A DNA stretch of 12,361 bases from Candidatus Woesearchaeota archaeon. Lineage in GTDB: Archaea > Nanobdellota > Nanobdellia > Woesearchaeales > GW2011-AR15. The notes below the pieces were generated by a model. It worked only from the letters and a program-made list of their open reading frames with translations. It was not told the DNA's origin and made no database searches. This document shows positions 272 through 12,229 of the stretch, one piece after another (position 1 is the stretch's first letter; every line of letters starts with the position of its first letter). Made by a program: the position numbers and the translations under genes. The DNA lies in assembly GCA_023701075.1 (NCBI GenBank), contig JAMPXQ010000026.1, positions 1 to 12,361 of the forward strand, given 5' to 3'.

Positions 272-1195
272 TTAAATCCCTCCAAACAATAATGATTTAG
301 GCCCTAGTATCATTATGGTAACCATGACAGCTGTGAATATTATGCAGCCTGAGATGAATGTCCAAAAATCTATAGGGTTCTTTTCCACCATCTTCCCTTC
401 TACGACTTCTTCATACATCATGTATGAGAAGCCGGCAAGTATTGCGACATTGATGATCATGTAGAACGGCATGAAAAGCAGCAGGTGGTCTGAAAACATC
501 ATGAGGCTTATCATCGGCCCCATAGTGCCTCCCATGAGGCCTGACATCATGCCTTGCATGACACCCATGACCCCTCCGCTCTTCCCTGTGATTATCCCTA
601 CAGCATTGCCTACAAGCATCCCCACCATGGATCCGATGAAGAAACCATTCGTGGCTCCGATTACTGCACCAAGCATCATCCCTGCCTGCATCCCGAATGT
701 CATCCCAATCATCATTCCTGTCATGCATGTGACTTTTCCTTTATACGCAAGGAAATGCCATGTGGCAGCGCCTAATGTGACAACGCTTAGATTGAGATAA
801 AACAACCATATCCCATAATCCTTGAAAAAATTAGGTATTGCACTAAAAAAACCGAAATATGCAACTGCTTCGATTGCAGCAAGTATGAAAAATGCATATA
901 CTACATAGCTGAGCCCGGTCCTCTCTATATCATATTTATGCTTGAGTTCTCTGAATTCCTTCCATCTCTCACCTAGCGTCTTTCTGTCAAACGGCTCAGT
1001 GCTTGCCCTATACCCTGCATCTTTGATAGTGTTTATTATATGATCAGTCTTCACCATGCCATCATCATATGATATCTCAACAGAGTCATCAGAGAACTTA
1101 GTACTGGAAATGCCTTGCACATTCTTTAGCTTCCTTGAAATCAGCTTGACGCAGCTGTCGCATTCGATGTCCGGCACATAGATTTTCGTCTTCAT
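272..1195 (-). CDS. HMA-domain fused Met/Gly-rich polytopic membrane protein, putative copper handling
   Basis: Seen: 307 aa. Residues 1-65 are a heavy-metal-associated domain with C12-D-S-C15 and the usual beta-alpha-beta-beta-alpha pattern. A charged linker (66-95) leads to about seven hydrophobic segments (near 97-120, 129-150, 156-178, 180-203, 208-233, 237-260, 277-298). Residues 158-233 contain 18 Met in glycine-zipper-like strings (GMMIGMTFGMQAGMM, GVMQGMMSGLMGGTMG), and Cys157 precedes the first string. Family knowledge: HMA domains pass Cu(I) through CxxC, and Met-rich membrane helices are typical of Cu(I)/Ag(I) handling. No P-type ATPase domains (DKTGT, TGES, CPC) are present, so this is not CopA. 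The start ATG directly follows the stop of the HMA chaperone, with GGTGA 5 nt upstream. Inference: a Cu(I) channel, transporter or sensor. The bacterial HMA-TauE/SafE-cupredoxin order is similar, but the membrane domain looks different. Confidence 0.75.
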   Translation of the reverse strand: MKTKIYVPDIECDSCVKLISRKLKNVQGISSTKFSDDSVEISYDDGMVKTDHIINTIKDAGYRASTEPFDRKTLGERWKEFRELKHKYDIERTGLSYVVYAFFILAAIEAVAYFGFFSAIPNFFKDYGIWLFYLNLSVVTLGAATWHFLAYKGKVTCMTGMMIGMTFGMQAGMMLGAVIGATNGFFIGSMVGMLVGNAVGIITGKSGGVMGVMQGMMSGLMGGTMGPMISLMMFSDHLLLFMPFYMIINVAILAGFSYMMYEEVVEGKMVEKNPIDFWTFISGCIIFTAVMVTIMILGPKSLLFGGI

Positions 1196-1372
1196 CTATT
1201 TCACCTTGTATCCTTCAGCAACAATGAGCTCTTTTGCTTTTTTCACGTCCAATTTGTCAAAGCTGGCTTTCCCTATCATCACTTTGACATCAGAAGCACC
1301 GGCCTCTTCAAGTACGTCTTTTATCAGCATCACACAGCTATTGCAGTGCATCCCTTCGATCTTTAGTTCCAT
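1196..1372 (-). CDS. small HMA-domain metallochaperone (CopZ-like)
   Basis: Seen: 58 aa, starting MELKIEGMHCNSCVMLIKD, with the canonical GMxCxxC metal site (Cys10, Cys13) and a C-terminal 'AKELIVAEGYKVK' matching the last helix and strand of HMA folds. It is somewhat shorter than typical chaperones (about 65-70 aa) because the middle strands are trimmed. The start is set by GGTGA about 8 nt upstream of the ATG at 1372; the ATG at 1376 is out of frame. The stop TAG (1196-1198) abuts the ATG of the HMA/membrane protein with no gap. Family knowledge: CopZ/Atx1-like proteins ferry Cu(I) in the cytoplasm. Inference: it delivers metal to the HMA domain of the downstream membrane protein. Ni, Zn or Hg cannot be excluded from sequence alone. 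Confidence 0.85.
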   Translation of the reverse strand: MELKIEGMHCNSCVMLIKDVLEEAGASDVKVMIGKASFDKLDVKKAKELIVAEGYKVK

Positions 1373-1445
1373 TCATCTTCACCTTTTGTTTTATTGTTTG
1401 TATTATCGATTTGTTTTATTTTTGTTTTTTTTTCAAACAACTTAT

Positions 1446-6968: not shown

Positions 6969-8222
6969 CTATTCGTACCTAAGCGCATCGACCGGCTTCA
7001 GTTTTGACGCCTGAACAGCAGGGATTGTCCCTGCGACTATCCCAATTATGACTGATATCCCTATCGCAAGTACTACACTATTGAGGCTTATTATGGCGTC
7101 CCCTGACCCGAACCTGCTAAAAGGCCCTCCTCCTGAACTGCTCATGAGAGAAGGCAATATCCCTGATAATATATAACCTAATGCAAGCCCTAGTATCCCC
7201 CCTATGAGTCCTATGAGCGCTGCATGTATGAGGAATATCTTGAGTATGTCTGAGTTCCTCGCGCCTATGGCTTTCATGATGCCTATCTCCTTTGTCTTCT
7301 CCAAAACTGATGTGAACATGGTGTTCGCGATGCCTACTGCTCCTACAAGGAGAGCTACAGCTGCAATCGCAGTGAGGAACGTAGTCATGGAACCCATCAT
7401 CTCTGACCTCTGGGCCTGCACTGCCTTGTTTGAAGTCAATGTGAAATCATATTTCTTCCCTAGAACATGCCTCTTCTGCGCAAGCTTATATTCGATGCTT
7501 GCCATTGTCGAATTGATTGCATCTTCATCTTTCACCTGTATTATTATAGTATCGAATTCATCCTTGTCCTTGTCTTCAAGTATTGCATATGCAGAATCTA
7601 TAGGCATATAGATAGAGCTGCTGGTATCATCAAGTATCCCTACGATCCTAAAAAGCCTATCCTCAATAGTGATAAGCTGGTTGAGCCCTACCTGCCTAGA
7701 AAAGAAACCGTCAGCTATCCTTCCGCCTACTACTATTACATTTGTATCAGCAGGCCCTAGCATCCTCCCTTCTGCAATCTTGCTTGTAGTCACAGTTGCC
7801 CACGTAGCCTCTTCTACTCCAACCACGCTCGCACTGCCTTTTTCAGCAACATAATAAATGTCTGCCTGGCCGCTTATCTGGGTATCTATGGATTTTATCC
7901 CGCTGACAGATTTCAATACCTGAAGATCGGTCTTATCTAGGACAATCTCATCTTCAGTAGAGACAGCGCTTGCACCTCCTCCACCACCTTCTCTTCCAGG
8001 ACCAAAGAAAGACGCTCTTGATGCGCCTGCCCTAAGGGTCAGGAGGTCTCCGCCCAAATCTCCAAGCTGAGAGCTTATCTGCTTTTGCATCGTCTCTCCA
8101 AGTGAGACTATAGATATGACAGCGCCTACACCAATCACTATTCCAAGTATTGTGAGCCAGCTCCTGAGTTTAGCATGGAGCACCATATTTAGGGCGTGCC
8201 TAATTATCTTATTTAGTCTCAT
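6969..8222 (-). CDS. ABC transporter permease, FtsX/MacB family
   Basis: Seen: 417 aa. TM1 is at about 21-42 (SWLTILGIVIGVGAVISIVS), a large extracytoplasmic domain at 43-278, then TM2 at about 281-303, TM3 at about 328-355 and TM4 at about 381-402. This is the MacB-core plus FtsX layout. Between TM2 and TM3, 'EKTKEIGIMKAIGARNSDI' is the conserved FtsX coupling segment. The C-terminus 'PAVQASKLKPVDALRYE' is the family ending. Two Gly/Ser-rich loops (74-86, 360-374) are unusual. Family knowledge: such permeases do not move substrate through the bilayer; they use ATP to drive mechanical work on the outer face (mechanotransmission). It is the third gene of the operon, 15 nt after the COG1361-like gene, with GAGG as RBS. 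Substrate unknown; peptide or lipoprotein handling and envelope defence are the usual roles. Confidence 0.9.
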   Translation of the reverse strand: MRLNKIIRHALNMVLHAKLRSWLTILGIVIGVGAVISIVSLGETMQKQISSQLGDLGGDLLTLRAGASRASFFGPGREGGGGGASAVSTEDEIVLDKTDLQVLKSVSGIKSIDTQISGQADIYYVAEKGSASVVGVEEATWATVTTSKIAEGRMLGPADTNVIVVGGRIADGFFSRQVGLNQLITIEDRLFRIVGILDDTSSSIYMPIDSAYAILEDKDKDEFDTIIIQVKDEDAINSTMASIEYKLAQKRHVLGKKYDFTLTSNKAVQAQRSEMMGSMTTFLTAIAAVALLVGAVGIANTMFTSVLEKTKEIGIMKAIGARNSDILKIFLIHAALIGLIGGILGLALGYILSGILPSLMSSSGGGPFSRFGSGDAIISLNSVVLAIGISVIIGIVAGTIPAVQASKLKPVDALRYE

Positions 8223-8237
8223 CTGGATTCCTCAAAC

Positions 8238-9647
8238 TCATCTCTTTATTTTTTTCTTCTGGAACATTTCGCCAAGCATCTGTTTCATGGTATAGTCCGG
8301 ATCTTTCATCTTCCCTTTCTTATATTTTTTATTTAATCCTAGATACATGATGAATATCACAAGCCCTAAGAATATCCATTTGCCATTGTTCCAGATAGTT
8401 AGGAAGATGTTCTGGCTCTGCCTGCTTCTTGCGCTGCTGCCATATCCTGTTGCTGCAAGATTCGTGCCTGCAGAAGTTGATGCAAAGACAGGAACTTCCT
8501 TAGTAACAGTATTCCTATTCCCCCTGGAATCAGTATATATTATCTCTATCTTAAGAGAAGACGCACCCTGGCCTGCTGGCTGAGCGCTCTGGTTTCCACT
8601 GCCACTATTTGTCCTTGCAACCCCAGTCCTCTGCATGCTGGTCATGTTCCTTGAGGCTTGCTGGAGAGCGAAGCTTGCGACAGTATAATCCCCTTCATTC
8701 AGGTTCCCTATTATCACTGAACTGCTTCCTGTTGTTTTCCATCCGGCCTGAGAGGGTATCTTCACTGTCACTGAACTTGCAGCGACACTCCCGATATTTG
8801 CAATGGAGAAAGAATATTCGCCATTTGAGACTCCTGAATAAGCGACATCAAAATCAGTCGCCCCTCCTACATAAATCCCTGCCTTTGTCTGTATCTGCGT
8901 CTCTTCTCCGCTGACTGGATTATCATAAGTAAGGTATAGGTCCATCTTATAGAGATCAGGATCTGCAGTTGCGCTCGCGATAACATCGAACTTCAGTTCA
9001 GAGCTCTCTCCCACATCGATATACTTGATATATTTTGTATTGTCAGAACCTACAGGAAGGATTATGTCATCCTCATTCTCCCATTTGAATGTTAGGTCTC
9101 TTAAAGGCGTAGAACCGACATTATTTATCGTGAAAGTGAGAGGCGTTATATGTCCTGGAATCAACTCCACCTGGTCTATATAGATTATCTCAGCATTCTC
9201 GCTGCTCTCTACATCTATGCCAAAGAGCCTTGTCGTTGGGAGATTTGTCCCATCCTTCTCATATGCAAGGAGCGCAATATTATATGTGCCTGCAATGACA
9301 TCCTTGTTTATCTTGACCTTGAATTTCGCAGTCATCTTGTTGTTCCCTTTTATCTGGGAAGAGATTTCGCCTAGGTTGAGCTGATATATCTCACCCTGCA
9401 TTGCTTCAAAAGGATATTCTGGCTTGAATTCCAAGATATATTCACCAGTAGTCTTCTGCCCCAGGTTCTCTATCCCTAGTCTTATCTCAACAATATCTCC
9501 TGAGATTGCAGGGTCAGGGTCCTGGTTCAAGAGTGATATGGACACTGCTTCATCAGTGATAGCATCTGTTGCTATGGATTGCCCTGCTGCAAATGCTGCT
9601 GATATAGCCAAAAGGAACAATGCAAATAAGATATAGTGTTTTTTCAT
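8238..9647 (-). CDS. COG1361/CARDB-like extracellular protein anchored by a C-terminal TM, partner of the ABC transporter
   Basis: Seen: 469 aa. A signal peptide is at 1-21 (MKKHYILFALFLLAISAAFAA). Tandem beta-sandwich repeats of the CARDB/NEW3 kind follow: 'QDPDPAISGDIVEIRLGIEN' at about 42-61, a second at about 158-187 ('IPGHITPLTFTINNVG'), and a third at about 270-330. Next is a Ser/Gly/Gln-rich linker (about 335-365), one more strand region, a TM near 424-440, and a 30-residue Lys-rich cytoplasmic tail. Family knowledge: archaea place COG1361 proteins beside MacB-like permeases, apparently in place of the bacterial MacA adaptor. The gene starts 7 nt after the ATPase stop, with AAGGTG as RBS. 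Inference: it is the extracellular domain that couples to the permease or contacts substrate or the cell wall. Confidence 0.85.
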   Translation of the reverse strand: MKKHYILFALFLLAISAAFAAGQSIATDAITDEAVSISLLNQDPDPAISGDIVEIRLGIENLGQKTTGEYILEFKPEYPFEAMQGEIYQLNLGEISSQIKGNNKMTAKFKVKINKDVIAGTYNIALLAYEKDGTNLPTTRLFGIDVESSENAEIIYIDQVELIPGHITPLTFTINNVGSTPLRDLTFKWENEDDIILPVGSDNTKYIKYIDVGESSELKFDVIASATADPDLYKMDLYLTYDNPVSGEETQIQTKAGIYVGGATDFDVAYSGVSNGEYSFSIANIGSVAASSVTVKIPSQAGWKTTGSSSVIIGNLNEGDYTVASFALQQASRNMTSMQRTGVARTNSGSGNQSAQPAGQGASSLKIEIIYTDSRGNRNTVTKEVPVFASTSAGTNLAATGYGSSARSRQSQNIFLTIWNNGKWIFLGLVIFIMYLGLNKKYKKGKMKDPDYTMKQMLGEMFQKKKIKR

Positions 9648-9653
9648 TCGGTT

Positions 9654-10385
9654 TCACCTTTTATCTGAATAGATAATGTTATTGTTTTCTCTGATATCGA
9701 CGACTTTCCCGTCTTTTAGTTCGACATGCTTCTGCGCATATCTCGCCAGGTTCAAGTCGTGCGTGACCATGATTATTGTCTTTCCTTCTTTTTTCCAGAG
9801 AGTCTGCAGTGTTGAAAGCACTTCCCTCCCTGTGACGCTGTCAAGCGCTCCTGTAGGTTCGTCTGCAAGTATTATCTCCGGGTCAGTCACAAGCGACCTT
9901 GCGATTGATACTCTCTGCTGCTGCCCTCCTGAAAGCTGTGAAGGGAGATGATACATCTTGTCATGCAGACCTACGCTCTCCAGGACTTTCCTTGCCTTCG
10001 CCTGTGCCTCATGTTCATCAATCTCAAGGAATTCTAGAGGCAGCATGACATTCTCAAAAGCAGTCATGTTCTGTATGAGGTTGTACTGCTGGAAGATGAA
10101 TCCTACAGCCTTTCCCCTAAGGGTAGAGAGGTCTGATTCAGAAAGTTTTGATATGTCATGTGATTTGAGCATGACAGTCCCCCTTGATGGCATGTCAAGG
10201 CATCCTACCATGTTCATCATTGTGCTCTTTCCGCTGCCTGACTGCCCGATTATCGCGACAAATTCACCTTTATAGATATCTACTGTGGCTCCTCTAAGGG
10301 CCGGGACATCAACTTCTCCCATCCGATATATCTTCCATACATCATTCAAAGATACCAAAGGCAGCCTGTTATTATTATCTTTCAT
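9654..10385 (-). CDS. ABC transporter ATP-binding protein, LolD/MacB type
   Basis: Seen: 243 aa with every ABC ATPase motif. Numbered from the chosen start: Walker A GQSGSGKS (47-54), Q-loop Gln near 99 ('FIFQQYNL'), signature LSGGQ (151-155), Walker B IILADE (171-176), D-loop GALDS, H-loop His209 in VTHD. 'DVWKIYRMGEVDVPALRG' near the N-terminus is typical of the LolD/MacB group. It supplies ATP hydrolysis on the cytoplasmic side for the FtsX-type permease. Of the tandem ATGs at 10388 and 10385 I take the second, because GGAGA (10391-10395) then lies 5 nt away; the ATG at 10406 lacks an RBS. It is the first gene of the three-gene operon and is preceded by a palindromic operator and TATA box. 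All catalytic residues are intact. Confidence 0.93.
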   Translation of the reverse strand: MKDNNNRLPLVSLNDVWKIYRMGEVDVPALRGATVDIYKGEFVAIIGQSGSGKSTMMNMVGCLDMPSRGTVMLKSHDISKLSESDLSTLRGKAVGFIFQQYNLIQNMTAFENVMLPLEFLEIDEHEAQAKARKVLESVGLHDKMYHLPSQLSGGQQQRVSIARSLVTDPEIILADEPTGALDSVTGREVLSTLQTLWKKEGKTIIMVTHDLNLARYAQKHVELKDGKVVDIRENNNIIYSDKR

Positions 10386-10464
10386 CATTATCTCCGATTG
10401 ATGCATATTCCCTAGGATATAAATTATATGCTATCTCTCCCATCTTTACCTGTTCCTTTTTCAT

Positions 10465-10494
10465 CCTTTAAAAGCAATGTGGACGTAACGTCCA
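10465..10494 (-). promoter_or_regulatory. ABC operon promoter: 15-bp palindromic operator plus TATA box
   Basis: On the minus strand, TGGACGTtACGTCCA (10480-10494, perfect palindrome, 7-bp arms) is followed by CAT-TGC and then CTTTTAAAGG (10465-10474) as TATA box. Transcription would start near 10445, leaving a leader of about 60 nt. Positions 10477-10494 match 11222-11239 at 15 of 18 bases, with the same placement before the TATA of the 7-TM/regulator operon. A second TATA-like stretch (10417-10426) could be an alternative promoter. Confidence 0.65.
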
Positions 10495-10500
10495 TTTTCA

Positions 10501-10620
10501 TCAGTCATATTCTTCAAGCTCTTTTTCCATGACCAATAGTTCAATGTCATCAAGGTCAGTTATCTCATACCACTGTTTTTTGCGGAGTGATTTTCCGATA
10601 GGGATTCTAAAAGATACCAT
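10501..10620 (-). CDS. small 39-aa acidic-tailed protein
   Basis: Seen: the ATG at 10620 opens 39 codons ending TGA at 10501. The N-terminal half is basic (RIPIGKSLRKKQWYEI) and the C-terminal half strongly acidic (TDLDDIELLVMEKELEEYD), consistent with an amphipathic helix. A TATA-like TTTTTTAAT at 10636-10644 is positioned to start transcription within a few nt of the ATG; there is no strong RBS. It lies between the secreted repeat protein and the ABC operon operator, all on the minus strand. I do not recognise it. The codon pattern and charge asymmetry look protein-like, but a chance ORF of this length cannot be excluded. Confidence 0.5.
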   Translation of the reverse strand: MVSFRIPIGKSLRKKQWYEITDLDDIELLVMEKELEEYD

Positions 10621-10635
10621 ATTACTGCCCCAAGA

Positions 10636-10645
10636 TTAAAAAAGC
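10636..10645 (-). promoter_or_regulatory. TATA-like box of the 39-aa gene
   Basis: CTTTTTTAAT on the minus strand predicts transcription near 10615-10620, right at the ATG. It is moderate evidence. Confidence 0.35.
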
Positions 10646-10649
10646 TCCA

Positions 10650-10664
10650 ATATCAAAAAAAATA
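10650..10664 (-). terminator. T-tract terminator after the secreted repeat protein gene
   Basis: About 12 nt after the TGA at 10675 the minus strand has TTA followed by a run of eight T (10655-10662), the usual archaeal termination signal. No strong hairpin is seen. Confidence 0.5.
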
Positions 10665-10674
10665 AGGAAGAGGA

Positions 10675-11133
10675 TCATCCTCTCCTCCTAAAAGAACCTC
10701 TTTGGCCGTTCATTGGTGGGATGTTATCTTTTGGCCAATCATCAGATATATTATCATTCTGCCTTGCCTCATGCATCTCGGTAAGCTTTGTGAATTCTTC
10801 TTCAGTCAGTATCTCAGAATTCGCGGCATCCTTCGCTGCTGCTTTGTATGCATCATAGTCTCCTAAGTCTATTGCATCTCTAATATCTTGGTTCATCTGC
10901 ATCCTTTTTGACATCACTATATGTCTTTCAATGATAGCATTGAAATTCTCTTCAGTAAGCGTTGCAGTGACTGCTTCTTTCCAGGCACCGAAATCTTTGT
11001 CCTCTATCGCTGTCCTGACAGCATCATTCCCTGCAGTGTCCATGCCTAGCATGTGTCCCATCACAGGCATCCCTGCTGCCACTATCCCAATCAGCATGAG
11101 TGCAGCAAGTCCAAATATTATTGTCTTTTTCAT
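10675..11133 (-). CDS. secreted or membrane-anchored protein with two tandem helical repeats
   Basis: Seen: 152 aa. A signal peptide or anchor is at 1-21 (MKKTIIFGLAALMLIGIVAAG), followed by a Met/His cluster PVMGHMLGM (23-31). Two helical repeats of about 40 residues follow: 37-74 'DAVRTAIEDKDFGAWKEAV...LTEENFNAIIERH' and 82-124 'QDIRDAIDLGDYDAYKAAA...LTEEEFTKLTEMH'. The tail is Pro/Gly/Arg-rich. Family knowledge: repeats of the form 'AIexgDydaWkaa..iTEenF..fvemh' recur in secreted proteins of CPR bacteria and small archaea; their function is not established to my knowledge. The start at 11133 is fixed by GGAGG 8 nt upstream. It is divergent from the 7-TM/regulator operon. Inference: an envelope stress or metal-binding protein in the same regulon. 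Confidence 0.78.
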   Translation of the reverse strand: MKKTIIFGLAALMLIGIVAAGMPVMGHMLGMDTAGNDAVRTAIEDKDFGAWKEAVTATLTEENFNAIIERHIVMSKRMQMNQDIRDAIDLGDYDAYKAAAKDAANSEILTEEEFTKLTEMHEARQNDNISDDWPKDNIPPMNGQRGSFRRRG

Positions 11134-11194
11134 CTTTCTTTCCTCCATAGTTTGCATCAGGTATCTTCCTGATTATTCTTAAGACTGCTGAATT

Positions 11195-11203
11195 GTTTAA
11201 AAA
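11195..11203 (-). promoter_or_regulatory. TATA box of the secreted repeat protein gene
   Basis: TTTTTAAAC on the minus strand predicts transcription near 11174, giving a leader of about 40 nt that carries GGAGG at 11142-11146. Confidence 0.5.
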
Positions 11204-11221
11204 GAAGAACGACAGGAGATG

Positions 11222-11251
11222 TGCACTTTGCGTCCACATGATTTATATATT
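11222..11251 (+). promoter_or_regulatory. promoter of the 7-TM/regulator operon with second copy of the operator
   Basis: TGCACTTTGCGTCCACAT (11222-11239) shares 15 of 18 bases with the ABC operon operator; the CGTCCACAT half is identical. TTTATATATT follows at 11242-11251. Transcription is predicted near 11272, so the first gene is leaderless from the ATG at 11272. The operator is less symmetrical than the ABC copy and lies between divergent promoters, so it could also affect the secreted repeat protein gene. Confidence 0.6.
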
Positions 11252-11271: not shown

Positions 11272-11973
11272 ATGATAGAAAGAATCGGGCATATTGGTCC
11301 GCCTATTGAGTTCCTTGTGATAGAATTGATATACGTGCTCTTGGTCGTGACAATGTCACTCATAATCTATTTCAAGACAAAAGAGCTCTATGACCTAAGC
11401 AGGCATAAGGGCATATTCCATTTCAGGAACATATTCCTGTTTTTCTCATTGTCATACATCTTCAGGCTTGTGCAATTGATGTTCCCGCTCTCAAAAGAGC
11501 TGTTCTCATTTTATTTCCCATTCATGCTCATGCCTATAAATCTTATATTCATAAGCTACTTCAGCACAATGGCCATTCTATCTTTGATAATGGCACTCAT
11601 TGTGAAAGAGATGAAAGGCGATGGCAAGAGATTGGATATTGTAATGCATGGCGTTGCAATCGCTGCGTCAATTGTTGTATTCCTCACTAGGTCGCCTTTG
11701 ATTATGCTCTCATTCCAGCTGGCTGTATTCCTGATCTCATTGGTGATGATGTCGCTCAATTTCAGGAAGACAAAGCATGAGATGCTGATGACCCAAAACA
11801 ATATGACTTACATCCTGCTGTTCATCTTCTGGTGCATAAATACAGTGACCATGATGAGGGGGCTCATAGCAAGAGAGCTCCATATACCTCTCAACCTGCT
11901 TTCTACAGGTGTTTTCTTCTGGGTATTCTCAAGGGTCCAAAAGAGGTTAGGCAATGGCAAAAAAAAGAGATAG
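11272..11973 (+). CDS. 7-TM integral membrane protein, putative sensor partner of the downstream regulator
   Basis: Seen: 233 aa with seven hydrophobic segments (about 13-33, 51-70, 88-112, 122-139, 143-163, 177-196, 205-222) and a short basic C-terminus (QKRLGNGKKKR). A conserved-looking loop, 'LSRHKGIFHFRNIFLFFSLSYIFR' (about 42-65), joins TM1 and TM2. No catalytic domain follows, so it is not a histidine kinase. The ATG at 11272 is preferred over GTG 11257 and ATG 11260 because the TATA box places transcription start there. Its 3' end overlaps the start of the winged-helix gene by 20 nt. Inference: a membrane sensor that signals to, or sequesters, the regulator; I know no named family. 7-TM sensor domains of other signalling proteins are the nearest analogy. 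Confidence 0.75.
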   Translation: MIERIGHIGPPIEFLVIELIYVLLVVTMSLIIYFKTKELYDLSRHKGIFHFRNIFLFFSLSYIFRLVQLMFPLSKELFSFYFPFMLMPINLIFISYFSTMAILSLIMALIVKEMKGDGKRLDIVMHGVAIAASIVVFLTRSPLIMLSFQLAVFLISLVMMSLNFRKTKHEMLMTQNNMTYILLFIFWCINTVTMMRGLIARELHIPLNLLSTGVFFWVFSRVQKRLGNGKKKR

Positions 11974-12229
11974 ATTGGAGATAATCTATGCCATCCTAAA
12001 GATAATCCAGGACAATAAGAACTCTATAAAGATAACTCCTCTCTTGAGGTATTCAAACATCTCATCCCAGAGCTTCTCGGAATATTTCTCAGAGCTCCTG
12101 CAAAAAGAGCTGGTGAGAGAGGTGATTGAAAAAAAAACAGGGAAATATATAACTCTCACAGACAAAGGTTTCAAGTACCTGGAGAAATATCAATACATAT
12201 TGGGTTTCATAGATGAATTCGAGCTATAG
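11954..12229 (+). CDS. winged-helix transcriptional regulator (HTH_45/COG3432-like)
   Basis: Seen: 91 aa. Helices 'RDRLEIIYAILKIIQDN' and 'ITPLLRYSNISSQSFSEYF' are followed by recognition helix 'SELLQKELVREVIEKK', wing 'GKYITLTDKGFKYL', and a C-terminal helix 'EKYQYILGFIDEFEL'. Family knowledge: this layout and 'YxLTxKGxxFLEKY' match the archaeal HTH_45/COG3432 (SSO10a-like) proteins, which dimerise through the C-terminal helix. AGAGGT lies 7 nt before the ATG, inside the overlap with the 7-TM gene, so the two are translationally coupled. Inference: it binds the 18-bp element before its own operon and before the ABC operon. Whether it activates or represses is not visible; the site at the BRE edge fits either. 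Confidence 0.85.
   Translation: MAKKRDRLEIIYAILKIIQDNKNSIKITPLLRYSNISSQSFSEYFSELLQKELVREVIEKKTGKYITLTDKGFKYLEKYQYILGFIDEFEL

Follow-up and report, generated by a model that had tools for sequence, protein, structure and literature searches.

The right end of the window (the whole 12,361-nucleotide stretch analyzed here) holds two operons, a leftward ABC operon and a rightward operon for a seven-transmembrane (7-TM) protein and a regulator, with a small leftward gene between them. The ABC operon on the minus strand encodes an ABC ATPase of the MacB/LolD type (9654-10406; Pfam ABC_tran, with MacB and LolD as the best NCBIfam matches, each under its cut-off), an exported NEW3-like (NPCBM_assoc) accessory protein (8238-9647; PF10633, 31.9 bits against a cut-off of 24.4), and a MacB-type permease (6969-8222; MacB_PCD 109.5 and FtsX 74.7 bits, both over the cut-off). 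By Pfam, this is a MacB-type exporter, a MacB_PCD and FtsX permease with its cognate ABC ATPase; its NCBIfam score of 138.1 falls short of the MacB equivalog cut-off of 966. On the plus strand, the frame of the 7-TM gene (11272-11973) is open from 11257, its likely start at 11272 lies close to the expected transcription start, and its 3′ end overlaps the gene of a winged-helix regulator (11954-12229). The small gene between the operons (10675-11133, minus strand, or possibly from a longer start at 11157) encodes a secreted protein without a match in our Pfam search. Two similarities of this protein, one to the mS26 ribosomal family (E 2.6e-4) and one to Metal_resist (1 of 29 members, 1.2e-4), were discounted as functional evidence. 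Elsewhere in the window, we observed a gene for an HMA-domain membrane protein (Pfam HMA; 272-1195, minus strand) and, by eye, an adjoining second short HMA-like frame (∼1200-1374, minus strand), and metal handling near the cassette is possible.

The regulator belongs to HTH_45 (PF14947; 48.9 bits, cut-off 25.5), as do 22 of 22 aligned relatives at E ≤ 0.001. Against NF053610, the NCBIfam model of the Sso10a family chromatin proteins, it scored 48.3 bits, under the curated cut-off of 60. The fold of its model (pLDDT 91.5) did not settle the winged-helix family, because MarR, PadR, and AspA proteins rank equal to or over Sso10a in the fold list; judged by its sequence, the regulator is an HTH_45, Sso10a-like protein. 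AlphaFold2 gave the 7-TM protein seven helices (pLDDT 88.6, pTM 0.86) in a predicted GPCR-like arrangement. In the Foldseek list, three microbial rhodopsins (ranks 31, 43, and 49 of the 50 matches listed) stand among GPCRs, and since rhodopsins share the list, a general seven-helix resemblance may explain the GPCR matches. Between relatives, the regulator is the more conserved of the two proteins, with 49-75% identity to the window copy (21 relatives) compared with 27-47% for the 7-TM protein (44 relatives).

The initial annotation had reported an 18-base site before each operon, the two agreeing at 15 of 18 bases, and we confirmed these letters and their coordinates, as well as the TATA box that abuts each site (gap of 3 nt on the ABC side and 2 nt on the 7-TM side). 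The position and the match of the 18-mer stand, but the true conserved unit is 21 bp long (10477-10497 and 11219-11239): both sites are members of an imperfect dyad, approximately ATGTACACTTnAAGTCCACAT, ending 2-3 nt 5′ of the TATA box. The ABC-operon copy (10477-10497, minus strand; 25.2 bits with the relatives matrix) contains a perfect 15-bp palindrome, TGGACGTTACGTCCA, with a single occurrence in its own genome, and its TATA box TTTTAAAG (10466-10473, minus strand) keeps equal spacing in aligned relatives. The palindrome had been ascribed to this copy, where it is indeed perfect, but the second copy is likewise a dyad, ATGTGCAC-N5-GTCCACAT, which we read as a full dyad and not as half a palindrome because the conserved unit spans 21 bp. 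This second operator, ATGTGCACTTTGCGTCCACAT (11219-11239, plus strand; 22.5 bits), is followed by the 7-TM/regulator-operon TATA box TTTATATA (11242-11249, plus strand). It had been assigned to the 7-TM/regulator operon; that assignment holds, but the site is shared with the divergent secreted-protein gene. To its left lie a second conserved element, AAGAACGAC in the window (11205-11213), and, on the minus strand, TTTTTAAA (11196-11203), which probably serves the secreted-protein gene as its TATA box. As the initial annotation had stated, the window holds no further copy, the best other score with a relatives-only matrix being 2.1 bits. Immediately 5′ of the ABC operator, we also observed a 39-codon frame, MVSFRIPIGKSLRKKQWYEITDLDDIELLVMEKELEEYD (10501-10620, minus strand); a strict text pattern found it again in only one relative (L042) among 51 upstream regions, too few to call it a gene.

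We searched the window and the genome of origin, a draft of 1,261,383 bases in 157 contigs that is 76% complete, for further matches. With up to three mismatches, the joint pattern TGSACKTTRCGTCCACAT occurs three times in the window, at both sites and on the opposite strand of the palindrome, compared with a mean of 0.03 in shuffled sequence. Across the genome, its exact matches are the two sites only, and two other places match at three mismatches. The next-best genomic match to TGGACGTTACGTCCA (two mismatches) falls within an 860-codon open frame. Taken by itself, the 15-bp palindrome is no commoner in the genome than a reversed control (17 vs. 59 places, three mismatches allowed), and the evidence therefore lies in the site pair and its relatives and not in palindromes alone.

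A shared motif was visible by eye in the upstream regions of relatives. We iterated a matrix on the loci of 24 relatives, leaving the window out; it kept 36 sites, where 3.15 were expected in first-order Markov sequence, a count obtained on the same loci that the iteration used. Subsequent analyses used the 30 sites with scores of 17 bits or higher. Twenty-five sites from 16 genomes, oriented toward their TATA box, give a gap-free alignment of 35 columns (dyad, 2-3 bases, TATA) and form the model R1, with the genome of origin outside the training set. When this genome was scanned with R1, the two sites ranked first and second (E 1.7e-4 for the ABC-operon site and 1.8e-4 for the other), followed by a third match at 0.011. 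A wide regulon was considered and rejected, as the pattern, palindrome, and R1 scans gave no further convincing site in this genome. In a position test that looked for a site of at least 12 bits in the 260 bp 5′ of each 7-TM gene, the operator was present in 15/21 first-set clusters, 30/42 held-out clusters of the order, and 16/20 clusters outside the order, in addition to the window. Among 63 held-out 7-TM upstream regions, 47 reach 12 bits and 54 reach 5 bits; 200 column-permuted matrices gave means of 0.15 (maximum 2) and 2.0 at these thresholds, and 2 and 13 of 2000 random stretches passed. Many operator-negative regions have a visible weaker site, and L060, L139, and L149 show little; L177 and L236, where the 7-TM frame is split and the site lies inside the gap, were tallied as negative.

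Relatives of the 7-TM protein occur in 26 of the 60 genomes searched, the genome of origin included, and we retrieved the 26 stretches around these matches, some of them interrupted by contig ends. A 7-TM gene is accompanied by a winged-helix gene scoring at least 130 bits at 21 of the 26 loci, a secreted-protein gene is present at 19, and the ABC, NEW3-like, and MacB genes are present at 16. In the common layout, the 7-TM/regulator pair is divergent from the secreted-protein gene and the MacB-type ABC operon; in variants, all genes are codirectional (L045) or the ABC genes lie 3′ of the regulator (L044). At L052 and L054, the secreted-protein gene has been relocated and is still preceded by the operator and a CTTCTTCTTG element. 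The dyad is the mark of a recurrent cassette with a 7-TM gene and a winged-helix gene. The initial annotation had proposed one regulator for its own operon and the transporter, and the genome scan and the relatives support this proposal, binding by the winged-helix protein being inferred. Very probably, to judge from these sequence comparisons, the two sites are shared operators of one regulator, the HTH_45 protein at 11954-12229.

We then compared promoter anatomy across the cassettes. A logo of 72 operator promoters reads, from left to right, a leftward TATA box (columns -23 to -16), the element AAGAAGAAG (-14 to -6, mostly 0.5-1.6 bits per position), the dyad (0 to 20), TTT, and a rightward TATA box (23 to 30). 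In the divergent promoter, the element AAGAAGAAG separates the dyad from the leftward TATA box, and on the leftward strand it bears no likeness to a BRE. In 198 other TATA promoters of the same loci, A is frequent at -4 (0.56) and -3 (0.62), as in a BRE, whereas the 72 operator promoters have T at -3 (0.74); the mean number of purines at -6 to -1 is 2.07 in the operator promoters vs. 3.56 in the others. Before the 7-TM and ABC genes, the outer part of the dyad overlaps the BRE positions. The BRE of the leftward divergent promoter lies outside the dyad and is poor nonetheless (CTTCTTG).

A site abutting the BRE can serve activation or repression. We lean toward an activator, which would recruit TFB to promoters with a good TATA box and a poor BRE, because the uncovered leftward BRE is poor too and because this promoter combination is the setting in which the Pyrococcus regulator TFB-RF1 activates (PMC5937170). 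The same regulator and operators might instead work in repression, with a dimer over the BRE excluding TFB until a signal from the 7-TM protein relieves it. This version, to which we give a real but lesser chance, draws on the overlap of the dyad with the BRE before the 7-TM and ABC genes, by which TFB could be blocked, and on promoter-bound regulators described in the same source as interfering with TFB or TBP (PMC5937170). The location of the operators 5′ of the TATA box, the poor leftward BRE outside the dyad, and activation by TFB-RF1, the most similar characterized system (PMC5937170), argue against it.

To ask whether operator and regulator travel together, we scored both in 352 genomes of the order, the genome of origin included. 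Regulators were called with the A2 profile at 130 bits or more (68 genomes), a line set after we had seen a gap from 132 to 115 bits, and operators were called with R1 at E ≤ 0.001 (55 genomes). Both are present in 45 genomes, the regulator only in 23, the operator only in 10, and neither in 274; without the 16 training genomes, the counts are 32, 22, 8, and 274. Fisher's test gives ∼6e-30 for all 352 genomes and ∼6e-23 without the training genomes, values that ignore genome kinship. The operator lies within 5 kb of a regulator gene for 65/82 matches (46/59 in held-out genomes). The conservation in relatives on which the initial annotation had staked its reading is present: most genomes keeping the genes carry the operator before them, and across the 352 genomes, the operator tracks the winged-helix gene. 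Some of the 23 regulator genomes without a match at E ≤ 0.001 have weaker sites. Where only more distant regulator relatives occur, 1 of 30 genomes has the operator (G237, its cluster broken by a contig end).

Binding of the sites by another regulator, encoded elsewhere, with the winged-helix gene a mere neighbor, appears improbable. Seven of the ten operator-only genomes have a cluster broken by contig ends, and G276 has a regulator below the score line. The other two, G176 and G177, have no cluster within the retrieved stretch and so speak for another binder; the strong site in G176 (E 6.7e-6) lies between the 3′ ends of convergent genes, without an evident target, and that in G177 is weaker. 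The window itself encodes a second HTH regulator (2140-2655), which could be such a binder, but its protein is matched in 1 of the first 26 relatives, whereas the winged-helix gene is, among the window genes tested in these relatives, the DNA-binding gene that stays with the cassette. The co-occurrence of operator and winged-helix gene across the 352 genomes likewise favors the HTH_45 protein. It is hardly credible that the palindrome is an RNA hairpin or terminator or a chance match: TGGACGTTACGTCCA could fold as RNA and lies 3′ of the short frame at 10620-10501 (minus strand), but the conserved unit lies 5′ of the TATA box and the dyad is uneven in most 7-TM promoters (ATGTACAC...GTCCACAT), which would weaken an RNA stem, while chance is ruled out by shuffles, the relatives-only matrix, Markov sequence, permuted matrices, and random stretches.

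Several scans returned matches beside other genes, which we name from their translations. A few extra matches, with E values between 3e-4 and 1.1e-3, occur in other genomes. In G006, the match lies 5′ of a CMD/AhpD-like gene that is followed by FMN-binding and ApbE genes; in G262, of DoxX/FMN-binding/ApbE genes; in G177, of cytochrome-b5-like/DoxX genes; and in G264, of an XRE-like gene. Weak operator-like matches in three genomes (L133 ∼7684, L129 ∼2978, and L128 ∼8779) precede CMD/AhpD-, DoxX-, FMN-binding-, and ApbE-like genes. A link to redox functions is possible from the CMD/AhpD, DoxX, FMN-binding, and ApbE neighbors, but we do not propose a redox regulon. The A2 profile also detected a lower-scoring second HTH_45 group (G000:C46:9316-9582 and 30 genomes), some members of which stand beside a 7-TM gene (L061) without this operator; this group may have an operator of its own.

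Beyond the order, a one-genome-per-species scan found 150 regulator relatives, of which we examined the best 80. Many of these 80 come from Woesearchaeota records, and others come from Methanosarcinales, ANME-2, Methanoperedens, Archaeoglobus, and Bathyarchaeota records and from Diapherotrites, Micrarchaeota, Parvarchaeota, Aenigmatarchaeota, and Pacearchaeota records; two, probably misbinned, are in bacterial bins. The operator recurs in Methanosarcinales/ANME, Archaeoglobus, and some other DPANN, and it is almost letter-perfect in many of these outside relatives (e.g., ATGTACACTTTACGTCCACTT in ANME-2); the AAGAAGAAG element is present in Methanosarcinales and ANME loci too. In a sample of 26 genomes beyond the 352, picked for carrying the regulator, 21 contain an R1 match at E ≤ 0.01; the best match coincides with the regulator locus in 19 of these, as judged from the recurrence there of the letters of the site. 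The Diapherotrites, Parvarchaeota, and Micrarchaeota regulator genomes (G372-G374) have no R1 match genome-wide. In G357, a Methanoperedens record, two extra sites (L275 and L285) adjoin a second copy of the secreted-protein/ABC genes and an S469-like gene; these operators are on other contigs, which suggests that the cassette's regulator may act in trans there.

Taken as a mechanism, the HTH_45 protein would bind the 21-bp dyad, probably as a dimer, 2-3 bases 5′ of the TATA box and would control both operons, the one it shares with the 7-TM protein and that of the MacB-type ABC exporter, as well as the divergent secreted-protein gene. The 7-TM protein would sense something at the membrane and gate the regulator, and activation, the sign toward which we lean, would proceed by recruitment of TFB. 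A bolder version, which we regard as doubtful, is a kinase-free signaling cassette in which the regulator, an HTH_45 protein with a defined operator, is gated directly by a stand-alone 7-TM receptor of the GPCR fold encoded beside it, and in which the whole unit (receptor, regulator, operator, AAGAAGAAG, secreted protein, and exporter) moved between DPANN and the ANME/Methanosarcinales and Archaeoglobus lineages, its cis-sites almost unchanged.

Autoregulated control of exporters by MarR/PadR-type proteins is known in bacteria. In contrast to those proteins, the regulator here lacks an effector domain apart from its winged helix, its gene is accompanied by that of a 7-TM partner, and the promoter is an archaeal one with TATA box and BRE. 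The closest parallel in archaea is TFB-RF1 (PF1088) of Pyrococcus and other Thermococcales, which activates at promoters with a good TATA box and a weak BRE (PMC5937170). There, as here, a small regulator is encoded 3′ of a membrane-protein gene in one operon and governs both this operon and one for an ABC exporter (a prediction in our case), a palindrome with arms five bases apart directly precedes a weak BRE and a good TATA box, sites are few genome-wide, and the promoter layout is conserved in related genomes (PMC5937170). Here, however, the dyad extends with its outer part into the BRE. In that source, the TFB-RF1 operator is TCTGAANTTCAGA, which the consensus here does not match; its membrane partner PF1089 has four predicted transmembrane segments rather than seven; its exporter is of the ABC2/drug-exporter type rather than the MacB type; no mention is made of a divergent secreted-protein gene; and the system is reported in Thermococcales, whereas the present one spans several archaeal groups (PMC5937170). 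We do not count the system described here as a member of the TFB-RF1 regulon; the likeness is one of layout. Measured against the TFB-RF1 regulon (PMC5937170), the pairing of membrane gene and regulator, autoregulation, a single exporter target, and a palindrome before a weak BRE were known already, and the operator, HTH_45 regulator, 7-TM partner, MacB-type target, and multigroup spread differ. Sso10a/HTH_45 proteins (PF14947; 1r7j) are described as chromatin proteins whose binding bends, bridges, or coats DNA, high-affinity sites being left as a possibility (PMC4941522); for the present regulator, unlike the Sso10a proteins described there, a defined operator and targets are predicted. Among the papers listed in searches of the open-licence literature, none dealt with this operator or cassette, and PF14947 and DUF6962 yielded none at all.

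For a regulator of the HTH_45/Sso10a-like group, in which the best-studied proteins have been described as chromatin proteins, the dyad supplies a defined candidate operator that can be tested, and it does so in lineages known mainly from metagenomes. The 7-TM protein is put forward as a possible membrane receptor in this circuit. The regulator and its putative DNA site remain matched across distant archaea, and the Methanosarcinales and Archaeoglobus relatives may allow the circuit to be taken to the bench.
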